A stretch of DNA of 64,000 bases, from NCBI GenBank assembly GCA_937873445.1, contig CALMWF010000016.1, forward strand, positions 1 to 64,000, written 5' to 3'. The notes under the pieces are model-generated. The model saw only the letters and a list, made by a program, of their open reading frames with translations, did not search any database and had not been told where the DNA came from. The position numbers were made by a program, and so were the translations under genes. The number at the start of each line of letters is the position of its first letter. Position 1 is the first letter of the stretch. Shown here piece by piece: positions 21,907-36,351 of the stretch. This DNA comes from an uncultured Alphaproteobacteria bacterium (lineage in GTDB: Bacteria > Pseudomonadota > Alphaproteobacteria > Rhizobiales > Aestuariivirgaceae).

Positions 21907-23235
21907 ATGGCGCGGAGCGACGCCATTCTGACGCGGCTTCTGTCGCTCCATCCCAAGATCATTGATCTGAGCCTTGGCCGCATGGAGCGGCTGCTAGCGA
22001 AACTCGGCCATCCTGAACGCCGTCTGCCGCCGGTCATTCATGTGGCCGGCACCAATGGCAAGGGTTCCACCGTCACCATGCTGCGCACCATCATGGAACA
22101 GGCGGGGCAAGCGGTTCATGTCTATACCTCGCCCCACCTCGTCCGCTTCCATGAGCGCATCCGCGTGGCGGGTGAACTGATCACCGATGACGCGCTGGTC
22201 GAACTGCTGGAGGAATGCGAGCGCGCCAATGACGGCGAGCCCATGACCTTCTTCGAGATCACCACGGCGGCGGCCTTTCTGGCCTTTGCCCGCACACCAG
22301 CCGACTATGTGATCCTGGAAGTGGGACTGGGGGGCAGGCTGGATGCCACCAATGTCATTGCCCGCCCGGCGGTGAGCGTCATCACCACCATAGACTATGA
22401 CCACCAGCACTATCTGGGCACCACGCTTGCCGCCATAGCGGGCGAGAAGGCGGGCATTCTGAAGCGGGGCACACCGGCCGTCATCGGCGTGCAGCCGGAT
22501 GAGGCGCGCGCCACCATCGAAGAGGTTGCCGCCCGGCTTGGCGTCACCCTCGCCATCGCCCAGCAGGACTGGCAGGCCTATGAGCAGCACGGGCGGCTGG
22601 TATTTCAGGACGGCCATGGCCTGCTCGACCTGCCGCTGCCCGCCTTGCGCGGCCGCCACCAGATTGACAATGCCGGCAATGCCCTGGCAACGCTCCGGGT
22701 GCTGAACGATCCGCGCATCACCGAGGCGGCCATGGCGGCCGGCCTCAAGGCCGTGCGCTGGCCCGCCCGCATGGAACGTCTGGCCGCAGGCCCGCTCACC
22801 GCCCTGCTGCCGGAGGGGTCTGAGCTGTGGCTTGACGGCGGCCACAACCCGCAGGCCGGGCGCATATTGGCGCGGGCCTTTGCCGAGTTGAATGACCGGC
22901 ATTCAAAGCCGCTTGTGCTCATCTGGGGCATGCTCAACAGCAAGGATGCGGGCAATTTTCTCGAACCCTTCCGCGATCTCGCCCGGCGGGTCATCTGCCT
23001 CACCATTCCCGATGAGGCCAATGCTCTTCCGGCCCAGCAGCTGGCCTCACTGGCGCGCGACCGCGGCCTTGCGGCGGATACGGCGCCATCACTGGAATCG
23101 GCGTTGCAGCAGGCGGGCCGCAGCACAGCGGCGCCGCGGGTCCTGATCTGCGGCTCGCTTTATCTGGCGGGCCATGTTCTGGCGGCCCAGACGGGCGAGG
23201 CCATGTCGGCAGTCTCGGGGGCGGCCAAAAGATAA
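21907..23235 (+). CDS. folC: dihydrofolate/folylpolyglutamate synthase
   Basis: Adds glutamate to folates; 442 aa of the Mur ligase family. P-loop G-T-N-G-K-G-S-T (about 49-56), the Y-T-S-P-H-L motif, and L-D-G-G-H-N-P in the C-terminal domain. Four bases after accD. It is the last gene of the plus-strand block and converges on trxA. Confidence 0.95.
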   Translation: MARSDAILTRLLSLHPKIIDLSLGRMERLLAKLGHPERRLPPVIHVAGTNGKGSTVTMLRTIMEQAGQAVHVYTSPHLVRFHERIRVAGELITDDALVELLEECERANDGEPMTFFEITTAAAFLAFARTPADYVILEVGLGGRLDATNVIARPAVSVITTIDYDHQHYLGTTLAAIAGEKAGILKRGTPAVIGVQPDEARATIEEVAARLGVTLAIAQQDWQAYEQHGRLVFQDGHGLLDLPLPALRGRHQIDNAGNALATLRVLNDPRITEAAMAAGLKAVRWPARMERLAAGPLTALLPEGSELWLDGGHNPQAGRILARAFAELNDRHSKPLVLIWGMLNSKDAGNFLEPFRDLARRVICLTIPDEANALPAQQLASLARDRGLAADTAPSLESALQQAGRSTAAPRVLICGSLYLAGHVLAAQTGEAMSAVSGAAKR

Positions 23236-23280: not shown

Positions 23281-23604
23281 TCAGGCGATGGCGCTGTCGA
23301 TCCAGGCCTGCAGCTGGCCCTTGGGGGCGGCCCCCACCTTGGTGTCCACCACCTTGCCGCCCTTGAACACCATCAGGGTGGGGATGCCGCGCACGCCATA
23401 GCGCGACGGCGTGCCGGGGTTTTCATCAATGTTGACCTTGACGACCTTGGCCTTGGGTCCAAGACCCGCAGCGATCTCCTCCAGGGCCGGGGCAATCATC
23501 TTGCAGGGGCCGCACCACTCAGCCCAGAAGTCAACGATCACCGGAACATCGGCCTTCAGAACATCAGCCTCGAAGGAGGCGTCGGACACCTTGTGAGTCT
23601 TCAT
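23281..23604 (-). CDS. trxA: thioredoxin
   Basis: Redox protein, 107 aa, with active site W-C-G-P-C (Cys31, Cys34) and the cis-Pro motif G-I-P-T-L. The ATG at 23604 has GGAG nine bases upstream and matches family length; an earlier in-frame start at 23676 would run into the addA end. It lies downstream of addA in the usual alphaproteobacterial order. Confidence 0.97.
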
Positions 23605-23672
23605 GGGGAGACACTCCAAATCAGTCGGGAAAGCATGAGAAGTAGGAAGCCCGGCCCGCCAGGTCAAGGGTT

Positions 23673-26600
23673 TCACCCGGCCTGTGACATTTCCGACAGG
23701 GCTGTGGCCAGGCTGGCAGGATCAAGCCATTGCGCCCGGCCGGTGGCCGTCCACAGCAGGCAGGCGGAAACGGGCCGCCCCGGCCAGATCAGGCTGAGGC
23801 TCCGGGCATAGAGCGCCATCTGGCGCAGATAGGGATGGTCTGAACCAAGGCCTTCCGGCGGGCGGGCATCGGTCTTGTAGTCGAGGATGAGGATTGCCTC
23901 GGGCGTCACCACCAGCCGGTCGATCTGGCCCAGCAGGGTGCCGCCGTCCGGCTGGTCGGCGCGGAAGGACACTTCCGACTGGGCCGTGCCGCCGGTGAAG
24001 AAGGGGGCGAGATCCGGCCGGTCCATGAGGGCGAGGAGTCCCGTCACATCCGCCTCGGTCAGACCGAGGCGGGCGGCCTTGCGCCGGGCATAGGGCAGAC
24101 GCGCCGCCACCGGCAGGTCGGGCAGTTCCTGAAGCAGAAGATGGATGGCGCTGCCCCGTTTCAGCGCCCGCTGCACGGCGGCAAGATCGGCCGGTGACCC
24201 GCCCCTGGCCAGGCCGGTGACAGTGGCGCGGGCGGGCCGCCCCTCTGCCGGGGCGGGTGCTGTGGCCCAGTCGGGAACAGGACGATGGGCGGGGAGTGCG
24301 GGCGGGGCGGCGGCGGGCGGGCCATAGACCGGGTCTGGTCCATGCCGCCAGACCACACCCTCGCCATCGAAGGCGGGAACCTCGCGCAGCAGGCTCTGGC
24401 CCGGCCCGGTCAGAAAGACCTCGCTCAGCCGCTGATACCAGCAGTCATCAGCCAGGCCTTTGTCGGCAACGGCACCGCCAACATAGAGTTCATCCCTGGC
24501 TCTGGTCATGGCGACATAGAGCAGGCGGTTGCGCTCGCGCAGGGCAAGGTGACGGGCGGCCTCCTTCCAGCGGTCAATGGCGGGAGAGAGGATGAGATGC
24601 GAAAGAACCCATAACGGCAGGCCCGCCCCCGGCTCACCATCGGGTATGGCGACCAGGCCGTTGCCGCCCCGCTCGCCCGGCAGGGTGGCGGCATCGGGCA
24701 GGATGACAATGTTGGCTTCAAGACCCTTGGCGCCGTGCACCGTCATCAGCCGCACTTCACCCGACCCCTTGTCCATCTCGCGGCGGATTTCGGTGGCGGT
24801 GGCAGTGAACCAGTTGAGGAAGCCGGCCAGCGACGCTCCATGCTCCTCCTCATAGGCAAGGGCCTGGTCGAGAAGGGCATCGGTGGCATCGAGCGCCTCG
24901 CTGCCGAGACGGGCGAGAATGGCCCGCCGCCGCGCGGTGAGCACGCCGGCAAGAAAGTCATAGGGGCGGGCGGCTGGTCCGGTGTCGTGCCAGGTAGCCA
25001 GTACGGCGGCATTGGCGCGGGCCTTGTCGTCATCGGCTGCCAGCAGGCGCTGCCACAGGCTCAGCGCCCCGCGCTCGGCCGCCAGCGCCACCAGGTCCTC
25101 ATCAGACAGGGCCTGCGGCACCAGCGGACTTTTCAGCACGCAGGCCAGGCTGTGGTCATCGTCCGGCAGCAGCAGCCACTGCATCAGGGCCAGCAGGTCC
25201 TGAACCGCGATATTGTCCATGAGACGAAGGCGGTCGGCACCGGCCACCGGCACACCGGCCCGACGCAGTTCCGCCACCAGCGCCGAAAACAGCACACCGC
25301 GCTTCTGCAGCAGTATGAGAATGTCGCCGGGCCTGACGGCCCGCTGTTCTGCGGCGATGATGCGTCCGCGCCGCAGCCAGTCGGCAATCATGGCAGCAAT
25401 GCGCCGGGCGAGACGGCGGCGCGGCGACTGCGGTGGTTCGCGGTCCACCGGCACGGTCCATGGCGTAGGTTCCGCATCATCCAGGGGCTCAACCAGAGGC
25501 CACAGTTCAAACACACCCGGCACGCCGAGCCGTTCAGACTGATGCTGGATGTTGGGCAGGTCGTGGCGCTCCAGTCCCGCCACTGCGGCTGAGCCCGCCG
25601 CAAAGGTGTGATCCACCACAGTGAGCAGGGCGGGCACGGTGCGATAGGAAATGGTGAGGTCAATGACCGCCATCTCGGTGCCGCCACGGCCCACCACGGC
25701 GGCAAAATCGGCGCGCGCCCGGTCGAAGGCCGCCACATCGGCACCCTGGAAACTGTAGATGGACTGCTTGTGGTCGCCGACCACGAACACCGTGCGGAGC
25801 CTGGTCTGCGGCCTGCCTGCACCGGAGAAAAATTCGCTGATCAGGGCGGCAACGATCTGCCATTGCGGGTGTGAGGTGTCCTGGGCCTCGTCGACGAGAA
25901 TGTGTTCCAGTCCGGCATCGAGCTTGTAGAGCACCCAGTCGGCAAGGTGCTGTTCGGTAAGCAGAGCGCGGGTACGGGCGATGAGGTCGTCGAAATCATA
26001 GCGGGCATGGGCCTGCTTCAACTGATCGATGCGGGCCAGCAGACCCTGCGCCAGGGCATAGAGTGCTTCAGTGGCTTCAACCATGAGCAGTTCATCATGG
26101 CGGATCATCTGTGCGGTGAGGGTGGCCTGCTGGTCGGTCAGCCACTGTGCCAGAGCAGGATCAGTGGCAACGAGGTCCTTGGTGGCGATGGATTTTGCCA
26201 GTGGACGAAGCTTGGTGGTGAAGAACAGTGCCCTCAGCGCCGCGAGGCGCTCATCATCATCGCTGGCCAGAAGAAGGGTGCGGATTTTCTGTCCGGCCTT
26301 CTGCAGGGTTGACTGGCTGTGGGCTTCAAGACGGTCTGCGGCCTCCTGCCATGGCGTGCGGGCCAGTGTGGTGATGGTGGCCGCCAGATGACCGCTGCTT
26401 TCCGCCGCGCCCAGGCCCAGGGCGTTGCGCAGCACCAGTGCGATGGCGGCAAGCCCATCGGCGCGGCGCAGTTCACGCGCCAGGCCGCCATTGCCCTTCA
26501 GGGCATCGGCCATCAGGCGGGAAAAGCTCTTCGCCGTCACCCGGTCCATGACGGTGGCATAGGCGCGGGCAAGTGCCGTGTCCGGCGTGGTGCGGGCTTC

Positions 26601-27092
26601 CTGCAGCACAGTCGTCTGGGCGGTGCTGCGCAGTTCTTCCGCCTCGCGCTCATCCATGACGCGAAAGCCGGGTGACAGGCCTGCCTCCACCGGAAAGAGT
26701 TGCAGCAGGCGTTCGCCAAAGGCGTGAATGGTCTGGATTTTGAGGCCGCCCGGGGTTTCCAGCGCGCGGGTGAAGAGCTGGCGGGCGCGGGCGAACAGGG
26801 ACGGGTCGCTCACATCCTCGCCCAGCGCGGCCAGGTGAAGGGCCAGTTCCTCATCCGACAGCGCAGCCCACAGACCGAGCCGCTCGTGCAGACGGCTGGC
26901 CATTTCTGCTGCCGCCGCCTTGGTGTAGGTGAGGCAGAGAATGGCTGCGGGATTGGCACCCGCCAGCAGCAGGCGGATCAGGCGATAGACCAGAACCTGG
27001 GTCTTGCCGGAACCGGCATTGGCGGCCACCCACACCGAATGGCCGGGGGCGGCGGCGCGCTTCTGCTCGGGCGTGGGGGTGAAGACTGTCAT
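23673..27092 (-). CDS. addA: double-strand break repair helicase AddA
   Basis: UvrD-type helicase plus nuclease subunit of AddAB; 1139 aa. Walker A A-N-A-G-S-G-K-T ends near residue 31, helicase motif V-D-E-A-Q-D-T-S, a V-H-G-A-K-G-L-E motif V, and a C-terminal RecB-type nuclease domain with I-L-D-Y-K-T-D. The ATG at 27092 overlaps the addB stop by 4 bp, and homology begins there. It replaces RecBCD, as in most Rhizobiales. Confidence 0.96.
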
Positions 27093-30000
27093 GTGCTGCC
27101 TGTTCCTGCCAGCCGCCATTCGCCAAAGCGTGACAGATGGTCGAAGTCCGAGGGGTCTTCCTCCCTGACCATGCGGTAGCGCGGCAGATAGGGCGTGGCA
27201 AGGGCGCGATAGCCGCTGAGCAGATCCACCAGAGCGGCGAAATGCCGGGCCGCCAGGGCGGCGGGCGTGGCGGTGCTTCTGGCCAGTGGATCGGTGATCT
27301 TGCCCGGCGGCCGGCCGCCGCCCGCCTGCACATAAAGGAGGCTGCTGGCCTCGCCTCTGACATCAGCAAATGCGCCGTGGGCCAGCAGGGCGGCCTCGAG
27401 GGGCAATTGCGGCGCCAGGCCGGTTTCAACCTGTGCCCCGGTGGGCACAGAGCCGGTCTTGTAGTCGATGATCCGGTAACGGCCATTGTGGAGATGATCG
27501 ATGCGGTCGGCCCGGGCGCTCAGGGAATGCTCCACCCCCGCCACCAGGAAGCGGCTCTCGCCCCTGATTTCGGCATGGATTTCCGCCAGCCCGGCGCGCA
27601 GGTCCGGTTCCATCTCGGCCAGCCAGCGGGCGGCGCGGCAGAAGCGCGGCCACCAGAAATGCATGACTTCCGGATCATGGGCGAAGGGTCTGAACAGATG
27701 CTCTCCCCGCTCGAGCAGGGCCTGTTCGGGGTCGGCAGGCAGGGCGTGGGGAAAATCGCGGTTGAAGCGCTTGATGATGTCATGAAACAGCTGGCCGCGC
27801 AGGGCTGCATCGGCGGGCTTGCCCAGCGGGTCAAGCGGCTCAAGCTTCAGCACCCTGCGGGCAAAAACGGCATAGGGATCGCGGATCAGGGTTTCGATGT
27901 CGCTGACGCTGAAGTGGCGCGGCCTGAGGTGAACCGGCGGCTGCGGCGCGGGCCGGGCGAGAGGCGCCATGACCGGGGCCTGGTCCAGTGCGGCCGCCCA
28001 GGCGGCCAGCGTGTCATCGCGCAGGGTGGCTGCTTCCACACCGGCAGCCGCCAGCACGGCCTGAAGCCGGAGCAGCCAGCGCGAGGGACCGGATGGAGCA
28101 TCGCCGATCCGTTCGGCGTGGCTTAGATAAACCTCGCCCGCGGCCATGGCCTGCACCAGATCATGGGCGGTCTGGCCGATGGCCCGTTCCGGCTGGCCCA
28201 GGGCCATGCGGTCGCGCATGGGCCGGTTGAGCCAGGGACCGCCATCGGGCTGGGCGGGCCATTTGCCCTCGTTCAAACCACCGAGCACAGCGACGTCGGG
28301 GCGCATCAGGCGCGCTTCCAGCAGACCCATGACGGAAAGCCGGGGGTGGGCTTCGGCCCTGGGGTGATGCAGGGCCCGCGTCAGACGATCGGCAATGGCC
28401 CGGGCCGCCCTGGCGAAGGGGCCCGGCGGAAAGAAATCGGCGGCGGCGGCCAGTTCATCAAGGATGAGGGCCAGCGCCACATGCTCAGGCTCCGTCCAGT
28501 CAAGGCCGGGAGCCAGGGCCGCAAGCGCCTGGCGCAGGCGGGCAAGGTGGCCGGCAAAACTGTCTTCGCCCGCCGCGGTGAGGGGCTGCAGCACTGCCGC
28601 CAGCGTCTGCCAGAAGCGGTCCAGCGCCTGCCAGTCTGCTTCGTTCATGGTGCGGATGAACCGGCTGCGCAATTCCTGACCCGCCGCCAGCAGGCGGGCG
28701 CGGGTCACGGCCCGGCTGATGCCGTCAATCCCGTCATCGGCGCCCACCGGGCGGAGCACCGCCCGTTCAAGACGGCGCGCCTCTGTCAGAAACGCCTCAC
28801 GCCCGAGGCCGAGGTCGGCAAGGGGGTGGTGCATGAGGGCCACCAGGTCGGCTGCTGTCACACCTGCGGTCACCAGGCGCATGAGCAGGGCGAGAAGGTG
28901 AGCGGCGCCGAAACGGATGAGCGGCTCACCCGCCGTGTCATCCAGGGTGATGTGCCAGCGCTTCATTTCCTCCTTCACCCGGCGGGCAAGATCGCGGTCG
29001 GGGGTGATGAGGGCGGCGGTGCGGCCCGGTTCGTTGACCGCCCGGCGCAGAATGAGAGCAATGGTGCGGGCTTCGCGGTGGCGGTCGCGGGTGGTGACAA
29101 GGCGCATGCCCCGCACTGCTTCGCCCAGCACGGGCCCTGATCCAGCCAGTGCGGCACGCCAGCGGTCGGCGGTTTCGGGCGAGCGCATGAGTTCGCTTGT
29201 CAGGCGGGCGCGCGGGCCCTGCTCCGGCCCCAGGCGCTGCACATCGGCGCGCGAAAGACCGAGGAAACTCACCAGATTGCTGAGGGCGAATTGCGGGTGC
29301 TGCGGCCCCACCACCTGCCAGCTTTCGTCATCGAGACCCTGATCGAGGCCGGGCAGCACCACCGCGCCCTGCGGCAGACCGGCAATGGCCCTGAGCAGAT
29401 CCCGGGTTGAGGCAAAGGTGCCGGTGGAACCGGCAGCAATGACCGGCCCGGCGGGCGGGCTTTTGGTCAGGCGCTCGGCCTCCAGCCGGATCAGCGCATT
29501 GCGGCGCTGGCGCGCCGACATGACGCCGAGCTTCAGCATTTCAGCAGGCAGATCGCGGCGGATCAGGTCAATGAGACCGAGGCTTGCCAGACGGTGGCCG
29601 GACAGGTCGGCATCATAGAATTCATCGAGGCGGCTGAGGTCGGCGCCATCCTCTTCGGCCTGGTCGAAGAGGTCGGCCAGCGACTGGGCCAGCGCCAGGG
29701 ACTGGCCGCCGTCGGCGCCAAGGTCGCGGGCAATGGCATGATGGGCATTGTCTGCCGCCCAGCGCGCAATGATGCGCATGAGCAGAAACAGGCGGGCCGT
29801 GTCGGACAGGGCGGGCGGCAGGTCGCCCGGCTCCGTGGCCGTCACCATGTCCTCGTCAATGTCGCCGATGGGGCGGATGCGCGGCAGGAACAGCAGCCCG
29901 CCGGCACCGGCCGCACGGGCAGCGGCATAGATGAGATCACCGAGACGGCGCGCCGAACGCCGGTTGGGCACCAGAATGGTGGTGCCGGCCAAGCGCTCCG

Positions 30001-30115
30001 GCGCGGGGGGCGTGGGGCCGGGAAAGCCGTTCAGCACAGCCTGGGCCAGAACCGACAGGAAATCCTGATCGGCAGCGATGGTGAAGACGCGGGGCAGGCC
30101 GGTTGGCGCGGCCAT
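27089..30115 (-). CDS. addB: double-strand break repair protein AddB
   Basis: Second AddAB subunit, 1008 aa: inactivated helicase-like N-terminal part and a C-terminal nuclease domain with I-I-D-Y-K-T-G. The iron-sulfur cysteines of Bacillus AddB are not obvious, as in other alphaproteobacteria. It starts three bases after murU ends, so recombination genes are co-transcribed with cell-wall recycling and tsaE. Confidence 0.93.
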   Translation of the reverse strand: MAAPTGLPRVFTIAADQDFLSVLAQAVLNGFPGPTPPAPERLAGTTILVPNRRSARRLGDLIYAAARAAGAGGLLFLPRIRPIGDIDEDMVTATEPGDLPPALSDTARLFLLMRIIARWAADNAHHAIARDLGADGGQSLALAQSLADLFDQAEEDGADLSRLDEFYDADLSGHRLASLGLIDLIRRDLPAEMLKLGVMSARQRRNALIRLEAERLTKSPPAGPVIAAGSTGTFASTRDLLRAIAGLPQGAVVLPGLDQGLDDESWQVVGPQHPQFALSNLVSFLGLSRADVQRLGPEQGPRARLTSELMRSPETADRWRAALAGSGPVLGEAVRGMRLVTTRDRHREARTIALILRRAVNEPGRTAALITPDRDLARRVKEEMKRWHITLDDTAGEPLIRFGAAHLLALLMRLVTAGVTAADLVALMHHPLADLGLGREAFLTEARRLERAVLRPVGADDGIDGISRAVTRARLLAAGQELRSRFIRTMNEADWQALDRFWQTLAAVLQPLTAAGEDSFAGHLARLRQALAALAPGLDWTEPEHVALALILDELAAAADFFPPGPFARAARAIADRLTRALHHPRAEAHPRLSVMGLLEARLMRPDVAVLGGLNEGKWPAQPDGGPWLNRPMRDRMALGQPERAIGQTAHDLVQAMAAGEVYLSHAERIGDAPSGPSRWLLRLQAVLAAAGVEAATLRDDTLAAWAAALDQAPVMAPLARPAPQPPVHLRPRHFSVSDIETLIRDPYAVFARRVLKLEPLDPLGKPADAALRGQLFHDIIKRFNRDFPHALPADPEQALLERGEHLFRPFAHDPEVMHFWWPRFCRAARWLAEMEPDLRAGLAEIHAEIRGESRFLVAGVEHSLSARADRIDHLHNGRYRIIDYKTGSVPTGAQVETGLAPQLPLEAALLAHGAFADVRGEASSLLYVQAGGGRPPGKITDPLARSTATPAALAARHFAALVDLLSGYRALATPYLPRYRMVREEDPSDFDHLSRFGEWRLAGTGST

Positions 30116-30118
30116 GAC

Positions 30119-30829
30119 TCATTTTTCCTTCAGCGCTTGCTCTGCCAAGCCCATCGCTTCCGGCGTGCCGACGTGAAGCCATTTTCCATGGTGATCGAGG
30201 CCGAAGAGACGGCCCCCTGCCATGGCGCGGTCCCACAGCAGGTTCATGGAAAAGGCGCCCGCGGGGGCATGGGCAAAGAGGCGTGGGTGAACCAGATAAC
30301 CGCCGATGAAGGCGAGCGCGCCCGGTCCCCGGCCCCGGCTCAGGCGGCCATCCGGGCCGAGGCGGAAATCACCGGCGCCGTCATAGCCTGTGGTGCGCGC
30401 CGGGTCGCAGAGCAGCAGCAGGCAGTCCATGTCGGCGTCGGCCCAGTGGTGGCGCAGGCGCGCCAGGGCGGGTTTGCCCTCATCAAGCCAGAAGCTGTCG
30501 GCGTTGAGCACGAAGAAGGGGTCTGATCCCAGAAGCGGCAGGGCGCGGACAATGCCGCCGCCGGTGTCGAGAATGGCATCGCGCTCGTCCGACAGGGTGA
30601 TGGGGGGTGAGGCCACCGTTCTGGCCCAGTCTTCAATCTGGCCAGCCAGATAATGCATGTTGACCACGGCGCGTTTGACCACGGCGGCACGCAGCCGGTC
30701 GAAGGCGTAATCGATGAGGCGCTGGCCCGCCACCCTAATGAGCGGCTTGGGTGTGGCCAGCGTCAGGGGCTGCATGCGCGTGCCGAACCCTGCCGCCAGC
30801 ACCATGGCGCTGTGGCCCAGCTCACTCAT
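30119..30829 (-). CDS. murU: MurU-type nucleotidyltransferase (N-acetylmuramate-1-phosphate uridylyltransferase)
   Basis: A 236-aa nucleotidyltransferase with the L-A-A-G-F-G-T-R-M signature (11-19), L-N-A-D-S metal site and H-V-G-T-P near the end. In Pseudomonas MurU converts MurNAc-1-phosphate to UDP-MurNAc after AmgK phosphorylates the sugar. The overlapping upstream gene encodes an AmgK-like domain, which supports this role over a general sugar-phosphate transferase. It overlaps that gene by 8 bp. Confidence 0.88.
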   Translation of the reverse strand: MSELGHSAMVLAAGFGTRMQPLTLATPKPLIRVAGQRLIDYAFDRLRAAVVKRAVVNMHYLAGQIEDWARTVASPPITLSDERDAILDTGGGIVRALPLLGSDPFFVLNADSFWLDEGKPALARLRHHWADADMDCLLLLCDPARTTGYDGAGDFRLGPDGRLSRGRGPGALAFIGGYLVHPRLFAHAPAGAFSMNLLWDRAMAGGRLFGLDHHGKWLHVGTPEAMGLAEQALKEK

Positions 30830-32336
30830 GGCCCGCCTCCATCACCTCTGGCAGATGGCGGGCATAGAAATCGCGGATGGGGGCCAGCACCGGATGGCTG
30901 AGATTGTGCCGGAGGTAACGGGCCACACGCGGCAGATGGCGGAGATAGCCATGCTTGCCGTCGCGCTGCGACAGGCGGGCGAAGATGCCGAGAATCTTGG
31001 TGGCGCGCTGGGCGCCGAGCACGGCATAGGCGCGGCCAAAGGCTTCGGCGTCAAAACCCGGCGTGGTCCGGCGCAAGGCCAGATAGTGCTCATAGAGGGC
31101 CTGCTGCTCGGCTTCGGGAATGTCGATGCGCGCATCCTGCAGCAGCGAGGCAAGATCATAGGCCGGGTGGCCCAGCACCGCGTCCTGCGTGTCAATGAGG
31201 CCGACCTGTTTGTGACCCTGGCGCTGCGGCAGCCAGAGCAGATTGGGCGAATGATAGTCGCGCAGCACCCAGACCGGCCGGGGGGTACCGGCATGGGCCA
31301 GAACGGCACGCCACAGGCCGGCAAAGTCATCATGCACGGCGGCGGGCGCAGGCCCGCCCTTCAGGCGCGGCCAGTACCAGGCGATGAGAAGATCGGCTTC
31401 GATGAGCAGGGCCTCTTCATCATAGGCTGACAGGCCATGCTGCACCCCATCCGCGGCGGCGGTGGTGGGCCAGGCTTCATCCGCTATGTGGGCCAGCACC
31501 GCCACGGCAGCGCGCATGGGGGCGGCCATGTCGGCCCCTGCCGCGCGCATCCGGCCATAGACGGCGCCGTCGAGATATTCGATGAGGGCCAGACCCTGGC
31601 CGTCATCGTGGGCGAGGATGCGCGGAGCGCCAAGCCCGCGCCGCACCAGTTCGCCATTGATGGCGATGACGGCGGTTATGTCCTCGGCGAGATGGGCAAT
31701 GGCGCTGTAGGGCTTGCCATCCTTGACCGGCGGACCATCGGGGCGGCGCGGCATGTCCATGAGCAGCAGGCGGGAAGCCCCCTCGCCCAGCACCTCATAA
31801 CGCCGGGCCGAGGCATCGCCCTCAAAGAAGCGGCGCTCGTCAGCCGCCCGGCCGTGACGGGCGAGAAAGGCACTGATCGTGTCATTGCGGGAAAGCAGCT
31901 GCTGCCACTGGCCGGTGGCCTTCATCTCCACGGTGCGGCTGCCGCCACGGCCGGTGAAGGCGAGGGTGAGACTGTGCTCGAAGGTGCCAGCCTCCAGCCG
32001 GTCGGGCCATTCCACCAGCACCACATGGTCGCGGGCAAGATCGGCAAGACCCAGTTCTTCCACCTCGCCCACAGTCTTCAGCCGGTAGAGATCGGCATGG
32101 GCCACGGGAAGCCGCGTCTGGTCATAGGTCTGGATGAGCGAAAAGGTGGGGCTTGGCACATCAAAGGTGTCATCACCGCCCGCCAGGGCGCGGATGAAGG
32201 CGCGGGCAAAGGTGGACTTGCCCGCCCCCACCGCACCTGCGAGCAGGATGACCAGACCGGGCCTGGCCCACAATGCCAGCTCGCGGGCCAGAGCCGCCGT
32301 GGCACCGGCACTGGCCAGATCGAGGCTGCGGCTCAT
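30822..32336 (-). CDS. tsaE-amgK: TsaE-AmgK fusion: t6A ATPase plus anomeric sugar kinase
   Basis: A 504-aa bifunctional protein. Residues 1 to about 150 are TsaE, the ATPase of the t6A complex, with Walker A G-A-V-G-A-G-K-S-T (Lys40) and V-E-W-P-D-R-L. Residues about 160-504 form an APH-type kinase with catalytic L-R-D-Y-H-S-P-N and the I-D-T-Q-D-A metal motif, matching AmgK, which phosphorylates MurNAc and GlcNAc. With MurU downstream it gives a fosfomycin-bypassing recycling route known in Pseudomonas. This fusion is known from other alphaproteobacteria. It overlaps divL by 4 bp. Confidence 0.92.
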   Translation of the reverse strand: MSRSLDLASAGATAALARELALWARPGLVILLAGAVGAGKSTFARAFIRALAGGDDTFDVPSPTFSLIQTYDQTRLPVAHADLYRLKTVGEVEELGLADLARDHVVLVEWPDRLEAGTFEHSLTLAFTGRGGSRTVEMKATGQWQQLLSRNDTISAFLARHGRAADERRFFEGDASARRYEVLGEGASRLLLMDMPRRPDGPPVKDGKPYSAIAHLAEDITAVIAINGELVRRGLGAPRILAHDDGQGLALIEYLDGAVYGRMRAAGADMAAPMRAAVAVLAHIADEAWPTTAAADGVQHGLSAYDEEALLIEADLLIAWYWPRLKGGPAPAAVHDDFAGLWRAVLAHAGTPRPVWVLRDYHSPNLLWLPQRQGHKQVGLIDTQDAVLGHPAYDLASLLQDARIDIPEAEQQALYEHYLALRRTTPGFDAEAFGRAYAVLGAQRATKILGIFARLSQRDGKHGYLRHLPRVARYLRHNLSHPVLAPIRDFYARHLPEVMEAGHE

Positions 32337-34795
32337 GCCGCCTGCCGCGTCGTGCCGGGCGGGGGCGCGCGCTTTGGTCCCTGGGCCGGCAGATTGCAGA
32401 CCACGGTGGTGCCCTGATTGAGCTTGGAGACGAGAGAGACCTTGCCGCCGTGCAGTTCGGTGAAGCTCTTGACCAGCGCCAGGCCCAGGCCCGGCCCATG
32501 GTGGCTGCCCGGCAGCGGCTTGGCCTGAAAGCGCTCAAAGGCGCGCTTCTGGAATTCGGCGTCCATGCCGCGGCCCCGGTCGGCCACCCAGATCTGCACC
32601 ACATCGCCCGAGCGCCTGGCACCCAGACGCACGGCCGTGCCCGGGTCGGAAAAGCCTATGGCATTGGTAAGGAGGTGGCCCAGCATCTGTTCAAGCCGCA
32701 CACCATCGGCCACCAGCGGCGAGGTGCCGGGCGCCACCTCGACCAGCAGCGCCACGCCGCGCCGTTCGGCCAGGGCCTGATGGCGCTGGGCCACGGCATT
32801 GAGGCGGGCTTCCACATCCTGCGGTTCGAGGTGCAGTTCCATGGCCCCGGCGTCGATGGCGGAAAGATCGATGATGGCGTCGATGATGCGCTTCAGGTCT
32901 TCCGACGACCGCCGGATGTCGAGAACATATTCGCGCTGCTTGACGGTCAGATCGCCCACCATGCCGATGTCGAGGGCTTCGGCAAAGCCGACGATGGAGG
33001 TGAGCGGCGTCCGCACCTCGTAGGAGACATTGGCAAGAAAGGTGTTCTTCAGCCGGTCGGCGGCTTCCAGCGCCTCGGCGCGGTCGCGCAGGGCCTGCTC
33101 CATCTTGGCGGGATCGGAAATGTCGGTGAAGGACAACAGCATGTTGCCATCCGCCAGGGGGGCTGCGGCATAATTGAGAATGCGCTCGCCCTGGGCGATG
33201 CGGCCCGTCATGGGCTTGCGGTTGGCCTCAAGCCCGGTGATGGCATAGCGGATGTCCTGCCACAGGGCCTGGGCTTCGCCTTCGAGCTTGGGATGGCGCG
33301 TCACCTCGTCGACGTGGGGATCGCGGGCCAGGGCGTCGGGATCAAATTTCCAGAAGGTGGCAAAGGCCGGGTTGAACAGTTTCAGCCGGCCATCGCTGCC
33401 GAACAGGGCAATGGCCTCGCCCAGATTGTCCAGGGTTTCGCGCTGGACGTTGATGAGTTCGTTGTAACGGCTTTCGAGCTGGATTTCCTTGGTGAGGTTT
33501 TCATAGAGATAGGTGACGCCGCCGAAGGGGTGCTGTTCGCAGATGACATGGAGCGAGCGGCCATCGGGCAGATACCAGTAGTTCTCGCGCATCTCGAGGG
33601 TGGTGTAGGAGGAGAGCTGGCGGGTGCGCCATTCCAGATAGTTGGCCTGTTCCGGCAATTGCCGGGTGGCGCGCAGGCGGTCGAGGATCTCGCCGTCACG
33701 CGGTTTTGACTCCAGCCACTTTTCATCCAGGCCCCACAGCCTGGCATAGGCGGCGTTGAAAAAGCGCAGGCGCTGATCGGCACCGAAAATGGCGATGGCG
33801 GTATCGAGCTTGTTCAGCGTGGAGCCATGGGCCTTGATGTGGCGCTCCAGCTCCTTTTCCGCCTCCTCCAGCGGTGTCACGTCCACGGCATAGCCCGCCT
33901 GGCCGCCGCTCACCGGCACTTCGTGGATGTTGAGCGCCTTCATGCTGCCGGCCAGCACGGTGTGGGCGCGGCCCAGAAGGTGGGCCTCCGGGTTGGCGCG
34001 GGTGAAATCGATGCGCTGGGTGGGGGCCAGGTCAAAGCCCGCCTTCAGCACCTGTTCGCTGTCGGACATTTCGGCGGCGGCAACATAGGCGCGGTTCACC
34101 CAGGTGAGCTTGCCTTCCTCGTCCTTGATCCAGACCGGAAAGGGGGCGGCATCGAGCACCGCCGACAGGCGCTCCACCTGACGGGTGAGCTTGCGGGCAT
34201 CATGGGCCAGTTCCATGGATTGCTGGCGTTCACCGGCGAGCGACCGGAAGCTCAGCGTGGCCAGGCCGCCGGCCGCCCGGCCGGCCGCCTCCAGCAGGGT
34301 GCCGGAAAGGCTGCGCACCGCCACAGTGAAGGGACGGCCGGACTGGCGCAGTTCAGCCACCGCCTGTTTCAGGGCGGCGGCCGAATCGGCATCGAGCCAG
34401 TTCCGGTACTGGATCAGGTTTTCCGGCTCATCGGGAATGGTCAGTTCGTTCCTGAGGGTGTTGACCAGCCGTTCCGGCACCTCTTCACGACCCCGCCAGA
34501 CCAGCATGGCATGGCGCTCGGCGGCGAGTGCGGTTTCGGTTTCGTTGCGGCGGCCCTCCAGTTCGGCAATGTGTTGGCGCAGCGCCTGACCGCCCAGGCG
34601 CAGCCGGCGCAGCGCAAAGAAGGCGAAAACCGACACGGTGGCCGCGGCAATGGCGGTGAGCGGGACCATAAGCCCGTCACCGGCAGACAGCGGGGCGGCG
34701 AGCGCCGATGGCGCGGTGAACGCCCACAGGGCCGGTGCCAGGCACAAGCCTGCCCGGCACTTTCCTGCGCCCCTCGTTTCACCCTTGGCCTGCAC
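32333..34795 (-). CDS. divL: DivL-like PAS histidine-kinase homologue with Tyr at the phospho-acceptor
   Basis: An 820-aa membrane protein: a cleavable-looking hydrophobic N-terminus (about 20-34) and a TM segment (about 43-62), coiled coil, at least three PAS-like domains (about 208-315, 330-440, 455-560), DHp and a HATPase domain with L-L-T-N-A-I, D-R-G-R-G-M and G-L-G-L-A. The H-box reads N-V-S-Y-E-V-R-T-P-L; the codon 33022-33020 is TAC, so Tyr592 replaces His. This is the hallmark of DivL, which in Caulobacter signals to CckA and so controls CtrA. Position next to ahcY and before tsaE agrees with rhizobial divL. A strong hairpin separates it from ahcY. Confidence 0.9.
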   Translation of the reverse strand: MQAKGETRGAGKCRAGLCLAPALWAFTAPSALAAPLSAGDGLMVPLTAIAAATVSVFAFFALRRLRLGGQALRQHIAELEGRRNETETALAAERHAMLVWRGREEVPERLVNTLRNELTIPDEPENLIQYRNWLDADSAAALKQAVAELRQSGRPFTVAVRSLSGTLLEAAGRAAGGLATLSFRSLAGERQQSMELAHDARKLTRQVERLSAVLDAAPFPVWIKDEEGKLTWVNRAYVAAAEMSDSEQVLKAGFDLAPTQRIDFTRANPEAHLLGRAHTVLAGSMKALNIHEVPVSGGQAGYAVDVTPLEEAEKELERHIKAHGSTLNKLDTAIAIFGADQRLRFFNAAYARLWGLDEKWLESKPRDGEILDRLRATRQLPEQANYLEWRTRQLSSYTTLEMRENYWYLPDGRSLHVICEQHPFGGVTYLYENLTKEIQLESRYNELINVQRETLDNLGEAIALFGSDGRLKLFNPAFATFWKFDPDALARDPHVDEVTRHPKLEGEAQALWQDIRYAITGLEANRKPMTGRIAQGERILNYAAAPLADGNMLLSFTDISDPAKMEQALRDRAEALEAADRLKNTFLANVSYEVRTPLTSIVGFAEALDIGMVGDLTVKQREYVLDIRRSSEDLKRIIDAIIDLSAIDAGAMELHLEPQDVEARLNAVAQRHQALAERRGVALLVEVAPGTSPLVADGVRLEQMLGHLLTNAIGFSDPGTAVRLGARRSGDVVQIWVADRGRGMDAEFQKRAFERFQAKPLPGSHHGPGLGLALVKSFTELHGGKVSLVSKLNQGTTVVCNLPAQGPKRAPPPGTTRQAA

Positions 34796-34870
34796 GATCT
34801 CTGGCTCCGCCCGATGAGGCCCCGCCGAATCAGCGATGCTTCTGCCCCGGCCCGGTATAACCAGAAACGA

Positions 34871-34912
34871 CAGCCCCCGGAATCCCGCTTCATGGCCGGG
34901 TTCCGGGGGCTG
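34871..34912. terminator. strong hairpin between ahcY and divL
   Basis: Perfect 12-bp stem, CAGCCCCCGGAA (34871-34882) and TTCCGGGGGCTG (34901-34912), extended by an inner CCCG/CGGG pair. It lies 32 bp past the ahcY stop. The strand read by ahcY continues TCGTTTCTGG, a modest T-rich tail. Likely ends ahcY transcription before divL. Confidence 0.75.
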
Positions 34913-34944
34913 AGACGAAATGACTTGTGACCGGCGGGGCCGGA

Positions 34945-36351
34945 TCAGTAGCGGTAATAGTCGGGCTTGAAGGGGCCCTTGGGATCAACCCCGATATAGG
35001 CCGCCTGTTCCGGCTTCAGGGTGGTGAGCCTGACGCCGAGCTTGTCGAGATGGAGACGGGCCACCTTCTCATCGAGATGCTTGGGCAGCACATAGACCTT
35101 GTTCTCATATTTGCCGGTCTTGGCGTTGGTGAACAGTTCCATCTGGGCCAGGGTCTGGTTGGTGAAGGAGGCCGACATGACGAAGCTCGGGTGGCCGGTG
35201 GCGTTGCCGAGGTTGACGAGCCTGCCCTCCGACAGCAGGATGATGCGGTTGCCACCGGGGAACTGGATCATGTCCACCTGGGGCTTGATGTTGGTCCATT
35301 TGTGATTGCGCAGGCCCGCCACATCGATCTCATTGTCGAAGTGGCCGATGTTGCAGACGATGGCCATGTCCTTCATCTTCTTCATGTCATCGGCGGTGAT
35401 GACATCCTTGTTGCCGGTGGCGGTGACGAAGATGTCGGCGCTGGGCAGGGCATCGTGCAGGGTGTGCACGGCAAAGCCGTCCATGGCGGCCTGCAGGGCG
35501 CAGATGGGATCAATCTCGGTGACGATGACGCGCGCGCCCGAGCCGCGCAGCGACAGGGCCGAGCCCTTGCCCACGTCACCATAGCCGCAGACCACGGCAA
35601 CCTTGCCCGCCATCATCACATCGGTGCCGCGGCGAATGGCGTCCACCAGCGATTCCCGGCAGCCGTATTTGTTGTCGAACTTGGACTTGGTGACGGAGTC
35701 GTTCACGTTGATGGCGGGGAAGGGCAGCTCACCCTTGGCCTGCAGCTCATAGAGGCGGTGCACGCCGGTGGTGGTTTCCTCGGAAACACCGATGAGCGCC
35801 GCACGCTGGCGGGCAAACCAGCCGGGTGAGGCCTTGATGCGGCGGGCGATCTCGGCATAGAGGCATTCCTCCTCCTCGTTCTTGGGCGCGGCAATGAGGG
35901 CGGGATCCTTCTCCGCCTTGGCGCCGAGGAGAATGTAGAGGGTGGCATCGCCGCCATCATCAAGGATGAGGTTGGAGGGCTTGCCATCCGGCCAGTCGAA
36001 AATGCGCGCCGTGAAGGCCCAGTATTCCTTCAGGCTCTCGCCCTTGAAGGCGAAGACCGGGGTGCCGCCCGCGGCAATGGCGGCGGCGGCATGGTCCTGG
36101 GTGGAGAAGATGTTGCAGGAGGCCCAGCGCACATCAGCACCCAAGGCCTTCAGCGTTTCAATCAGCACCGCCGTCTGGATGGTCATGTGGAGCGAGCCGG
36201 AAATGCGCGCGCCCTTGAGCGGCTGGGCCTTGGCATATTCGGCGCGGGTGGCCATCAGGCCGGGCATTTCCACCTCGGCCATGTCAATCTCCTTGCGGCC
36301 CCAGGCGGCGAGATTGATGTCGGCAACGTGATAATCAGAAAAGACGGCCAT
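34945..36351 (-). CDS. ahcY: adenosylhomocysteinase
   Basis: Hydrolyses S-adenosylhomocysteine to adenosine and homocysteine; 468 aa with bound NAD. Seen: H-M-T-I-Q-T-A-V-L substrate region, [11 protein letters not shown], the NAD loop G-Y-G-D-V-G-K-G, and the C-terminal K-P-D-Y-Y-R-Y tail that reaches the neighbouring subunit. AAGGAG lies just upstream of the start. The leader contains a small hairpin. It stands apart from the genes on both sides by terminator-like hairpins. Confidence 0.97.

Follow-up and report, generated by a model that had tools for sequence, protein, structure and literature searches.

A tyrosine-bearing divL gene in an Aestuariivirga-type alphaproteobacterium and histidine-bearing DivL orthologs among its relatives

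DivL of Caulobacter crescentus binds DivK~P, and neither kinase nor phosphatase activity was found for it, according to the part of PMC4211667 available to us. The same part names R553 and T557 as docking residues, describes growth defects in a Y550H mutant, and states that all DivL homologs keep Tyr550 except that of Magnetospirillum magneticum, which has Ala. In this study, we analysed a 64,000-nucleotide stretch of DNA (the window; positions 1 to 64,000 of contig CALMWF010000016.1, assembly GCA_937873445.1) from an uncultured bacterium of the Aestuariivirgaceae, which holds a gene of this kind at 32333..34795 on the minus strand. We estimate a probability of about 0.92 that an Aestuariivirga-type alphaproteobacterium (Hyphomicrobiales) has its divL ortholog here and that the product is a PAS-bearing pseudokinase with a Caulobacter-type role. 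The genus was placed by sequence: a 5313-bp stretch of G017, another genome of this genus, is identical to contig NZ_QKVK01000005.1 of Aestuariivirga litoralis KCTC 52945. The window gene is an ordinary member of a known family; since its tyrosine is an already published hallmark of DivL (PMC4211667, available part), it is not news. The most unusual feature lies outside the window, in DivL orthologs that carry His.

The divL open reading frame (ORF) starts with GTG and encodes 820 amino acids plus a stop. Pfam placed an N-terminal PAS domain, with PAS_8/PAS_4 matches, at residues 208-315 (33851..34174), a PAS_7 domain adjoining the kinase core at residues 455-566 (33098..33433; the one placed of two PAS_7 stretches counted by Pfam), a HisKA (DHp) domain at residues 583-650 (32846..33049) and a HATPase_c (CA) domain at residues 697-805 (32381..32707), all on the minus strand. 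The order of PAS domains, DHp and CA is the layout of DivL. An N-terminal hydrophobic stretch, seen by reading the sequence, probably serves as the membrane anchor. Within HisKA, the H-box LANVSYEVRTPLTS contains the motif NVSYEVRTPL. Its Tyr592 is encoded by TAC (33020..33022, minus strand) and occupies the place of the phospho-acceptor His of active HisKA kinases, which is absent here. The earlier note on this DNA had given the ORF coordinates, TAC at 33022-33020, Tyr592 and the motif, and was exact on all of them. It had also stated that the ATP-binding motifs are intact, and a profile alignment of the N, G1, F and G2 boxes agreed, with N711, D739, G741, G743, F756, G767, G769 and G771 all kept.

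The identity of the gene was examined by comparing its product with all PDB chains. The top match was Caulobacter DivL (4Q20, E 5.8e-46); its E-value was some 20 orders of magnitude lower than that of the runner-up, another histidine kinase (1.3e-25). The alignment with Caulobacter DivL covered the kinase core (residues 565-806) and set Tyr592 opposite Tyr550 (numbering of PMC4211667, available part), and R595 and T599 opposite the docking residues R553 and T557. Trees were built by a quick method with SH-aLRT (Shimodaira-Hasegawa-like approximate likelihood ratio test) support; their outgroup branches are long, and many of their forks stay open. In a 69-row tree, a branch with support of 99 divided the DivL rows from three other kinases encoded in the same genome as the window gene. 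This genome (2.58 Mb, 47 contigs) has one divL match at E <= 1e-60. An ordinary named kinase family was considered and rejected, as the NCBIfam matches were to other kinases far below their cut-offs (the best, PnpS, reached 168.7 bits where 400 are required); the 25 matches listed, of 74 in all, included no model for DivL.

The genome also holds partner genes of the CtrA pathway, which the earlier note had proposed to look for as cckA, divK, chpT and ctrA. ChpT and CtrA were found above cut-off, and their genes share one contig stretch. A PleD above cut-off was present as well, and a DivK-like single-receiver ORF overlaps pleD. CckA was a best-hit name at 932 bits. In 15 genomes searched, ChpT was over the cut-off in 14 and missing in G087, and PleD over the cut-off was not found in G008, G087, G178 and G461. 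DivK-like ORFs adjoined PleD in 10/14 other genomes searched and were 60-80% identical. Together with the PDB match and the tree grouping, these partner genes bear out the earlier note's reading of the gene as a DivL homologue. Two of the checks that it had named, alignment with Caulobacter DivL and a tree, led to DivL relatives, and the clustering with ordinary His-containing PAS kinases that would have spoken against DivL was not seen in the trees.

By analogy with Caulobacter, from which DivK~P binding, CckA control and kinase inactivity are transferred, the histidine-kinase core of the window DivL would no longer phosphorylate anything. DivK~P would dock on its DHp helices, and the hybrid kinase CckA would receive this state from DivL, with ChpT and CtrA following in the pathway. 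The earlier note had described the Caulobacter protein as a non-canonical kinase. We prefer pseudokinase and DivK~P sensor, because Caulobacter biochemistry found neither kinase nor phosphatase activity (PMC4211667, available part).

Several observations weigh against this assignment. The Caulobacter docking residues Y562 and H579 are replaced by F604 and Y623 in the 4Q20 alignment. A 126-row tree with seven outgroup kinases gave the same DivL split with support of 65, on long outgroup branches. The CckA score of 932 lies below the NCBIfam cut-off of 1000. The DivK call comes from the pleD overlap and from similar pairs in relatives, not from Caulobacter DivK, and NCBIfam at a limit of 1e-50 named nothing for this ORF. 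For DivJ/PleC, the sole match seen was a PdhS-like C-terminal one, far under the cut-off.

We investigated how widely the tyrosine is kept. In the genus, divL matches were found in 37/37 genomes searched, and the H-box was read in 33 members, with Tyr in 32 and His in one (G008). A class search gave a divL match in 204/387 genomes at E <= 1e-100. The class survey, 80 loci from 79 of these 204 genomes and mostly one per family, showed 72 Tyr, 3 His, 3 Phe, 1 Val and 1 stop codon at this place. A set of named loci, the best 80 of 499 confirmed, had 78 Tyr and 2 Phe. A tally of 238 loci, which holds repeated genes such as three copies of G008, gave 225 Tyr, 6 His, 5 Phe, 1 Val and 1 stop. Phe stands at the DivL Tyr place in loci L105, L141, L273, L286 and L287, and Val in L240; in L105 and L287 the ATP boxes are damaged too. 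In G312 (L244/L351), a TAG stop falls exactly at the Tyr codon, and the adjoining ahcY and tsaE-amgK matches have no in-frame stop; the TAG may be an assembly error, decay or something else. In another genome, G013 (L032/L171; L077 is the same stretch), a TAA codon interrupts the divL reading frame within the N-terminal PAS part. G004 holds a second gene resembling divL (L172, contig C14), which is 37% identical and has Tyr. Two divL homologs have been described in many Rhizobiales genomes (PMC8116508, available part).

These counts bear on two other explanations of Tyr592. If the gene encoded an ordinary PAS histidine kinase whose His was recently lost by mutation or sequencing error, TAC being one base from CAC and the intact ATP boxes would fit. 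However, Tyr at this place in 32 of the 33 genus members read and in 72 of the 80 class-survey loci, and the conserved position in which the gene lies, leave this explanation a negligible probability, and on the ground of this conservation we rejected it. An active tyrosine autokinase using Tyr592 would likewise accord with the intact ATP boxes, and with Glu593 following the tyrosine. The purified Caulobacter protein was without kinase or phosphatase activity in the available part of PMC4211667, however, and the five relatives with Phe and the one with Val could not accept phosphate at this place, so that we regard an autokinase as very improbable.

A further explanation concerns the neighbouring genes, which lie on the minus strand. 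Directly downstream of divL is a tsaE-amgK fusion ORF of 504 amino acids (30822..32336; Pfam and ORF coordinates), followed by murU (30119..30829; NCBIfam-type match and junction coordinates), addB (27089..30115), addA (23673..27119) and trxA (23281..23676). The last three were assigned by family match, with an ORF for trxA, the last gene of the same-strand run. The plus-strand folC (21907-23235; ORF and family match) converges on trxA. Overlaps join divL and tsaE-amgK (4 bp), tsaE-amgK and murU (8 bp), addB and addA (31 bp), and addA and trxA (4 bp), and a gap of 3 bp separates murU from addB. The overlaps make it plausible that one transcript runs across divL and the downstream genes, which may also be translationally coupled. 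The earlier note had drawn from the same arrangement that cell-cycle signalling, tRNA modification, wall recycling and DNA repair share one transcript. A functional linkage of this kind, in which CtrA-pathway output is co-regulated with wall recycling or repair through one divL transcript, would fit the overlaps and the persistence of the gene order between distant relatives. Among the named loci, TsaE-AmgK lay downstream on the same strand in 75 (within 3 kb of the divL match start in 68), murU in 74, addB in 68, addA in 62 and trxA in 51, and the first four all lay downstream in 61; some loci lacking neighbours are cut by contig ends. In the class survey, which took in about 1.7 kb or less downstream, TsaE-AmgK matched in 43/80 loci and found no match in 37/80. 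In several named loci it came only 3 to 9 kb further downstream, so tight linkage is dispensable. In Caulobacter, divL presumably lies apart from amgK and murU, with neighbours that differ from those in the window. Caulobacter amgK and murU are CCNA_03649-03650 (PMC13046382, available part). We therefore consider the functional linkage unlikely. The divL cluster is old and common and not obligatory; since its gene order is seen widely in the class, there is no special coupling of this genome.

Upstream of divL, ahcY (34945..36351, minus strand; family match) is separated from it by 149 bp; neighbour counts make it a frequent upstream neighbour, on the same strand in 55 of the named loci. A strong RNA hairpin lies between the two genes (34871..34912, minus strand; the fold of 34850-34920 gave -38.6 kcal/mol, z -4.28) and might mark where transcription of ahcY stops. 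A scan of 34700-35100 for promoters and T-tailed terminators found neither between ahcY and divL and did not list this hairpin, which is thus not clearly a terminator.

We examined the relatives in which His replaces the tyrosine. In the window's own genus, G008 (L031/L170/L190) has His encoded by CAT, with intact ATP boxes and the full conserved gene order; this His rests on one record, a single assembly of 82% completeness, unlike those of the family f53 and the genus g172. In f53 (L298-L320), 23 of 25 genomes searched had a match, and 23/23 carried His with intact ATP boxes. TsaE-AmgK and MurU followed directly downstream in all four of these 23 genomes examined: G439 and G193 have the order ahcY-divL-tsaE-amgK-murU-addB-addA, and G404 and G342 have tsaE-amgK and murU downstream of divL. 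The family f97 had a match in 18/18 genomes. Tyr stands in 6 of them, the 2 of genus g99 have His and intact boxes, and the 10 of g172 have His and degenerate boxes. None of divL's conserved neighbours was found in either of the two g99 genomes, both with His. In g172 (L329-L338), 10/10 had His, and in the profile alignment the N, G1, F and G2 boxes had lost most of their residues; the kinase core read in 3/10 proteins lacked the N, G1 and G2 boxes. The order ahcY-divL-tsaE-amgK-murU-addB-addA was kept in 3/3 of the g172 genomes examined (of 10). Judged by its motifs, g172 is the mirror image of normal DivL, with His and destroyed ATP boxes. In G460, a Tyr row of f97, the residues in the F column and in the first G2 column are altered too. 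TsaE and AmgK, one ORF in the window, matched as two separate pieces in the f53 and g172 loci in which the order was followed as far as addA.

The 69-row tree, which took 8/23 f53 rows, required at least 4 Tyr/His changes inside DivL; fewer are needed if only its best-supported branches are counted. Counts of this kind do not by themselves separate gain from loss, and the direction rests on the outgroup. In this tree the His rows stood among Tyr rows, which suggests a repeated return of histidine. It is quite possible, although we put it forward tentatively, that histidine returned repeatedly (G008, f53, g99 and g172), that either half of the kinase core may hold DivL dead, and that some lineages may be re-armed as a DivK~P-stimulated kinase. 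The His lineages suggest that Tyr is not the sole way to keep DivL inactive, and some lineages may have an active DivL. An origin of the g172 form through DivK loss, a link taken from the available part of PMC2877005, was rejected: a DivK-like ORF stood beside PleD in 3/3 g172 genomes checked. The same was found in 3/3 f53 genomes and in G130 (g99). In the literature searched, which for the most part did not reach subscription journals, the His lineages of DivL were not found described. They stand against the statement that Tyr is conserved with one Ala exception and are relevant to the impaired growth of Caulobacter with Y550H (both PMC4211667, available part). Such lineages, one of which combines His with a dead ATP domain, serve as natural experiments on the reason for DivL being a pseudokinase.

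The analysis settles the annotation of the window gene as a conserved CtrA-pathway regulator and not an odd mutant kinase. With Caulobacter DivL (4Q20; PMC4211667, available part), it shares the PAS, HisKA and HATPase_c domains, the tyrosine and the intact ATP boxes, and the two genomes share the CckA-ChpT-CtrA pathway and DivK, here a DivK-like ORF. DivL of Aestuariivirga litoralis, Roseibium, Mesorhizobium, Bradyrhizobium and Brucella tritici has the same tyrosine, with TsaE-AmgK and MurU downstream. These Hyphomicrobiales proteins differ from the window DivL in being about 35-60% identical to it, and the Bradyrhizobium divL loci, unlike the window, have no ahcY match alongside. The short DivL of Rhodobacterales belongs to the same family according to the available parts of PMC2877005 and PMC9430884; it is without the kinase-like domain and goes with DivK loss, whereas the window's genome has both. 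The DivL proteins of f53, of g99 and g172 in f97, and of G008 are encoded by the same gene by profile, with His for Tyr.

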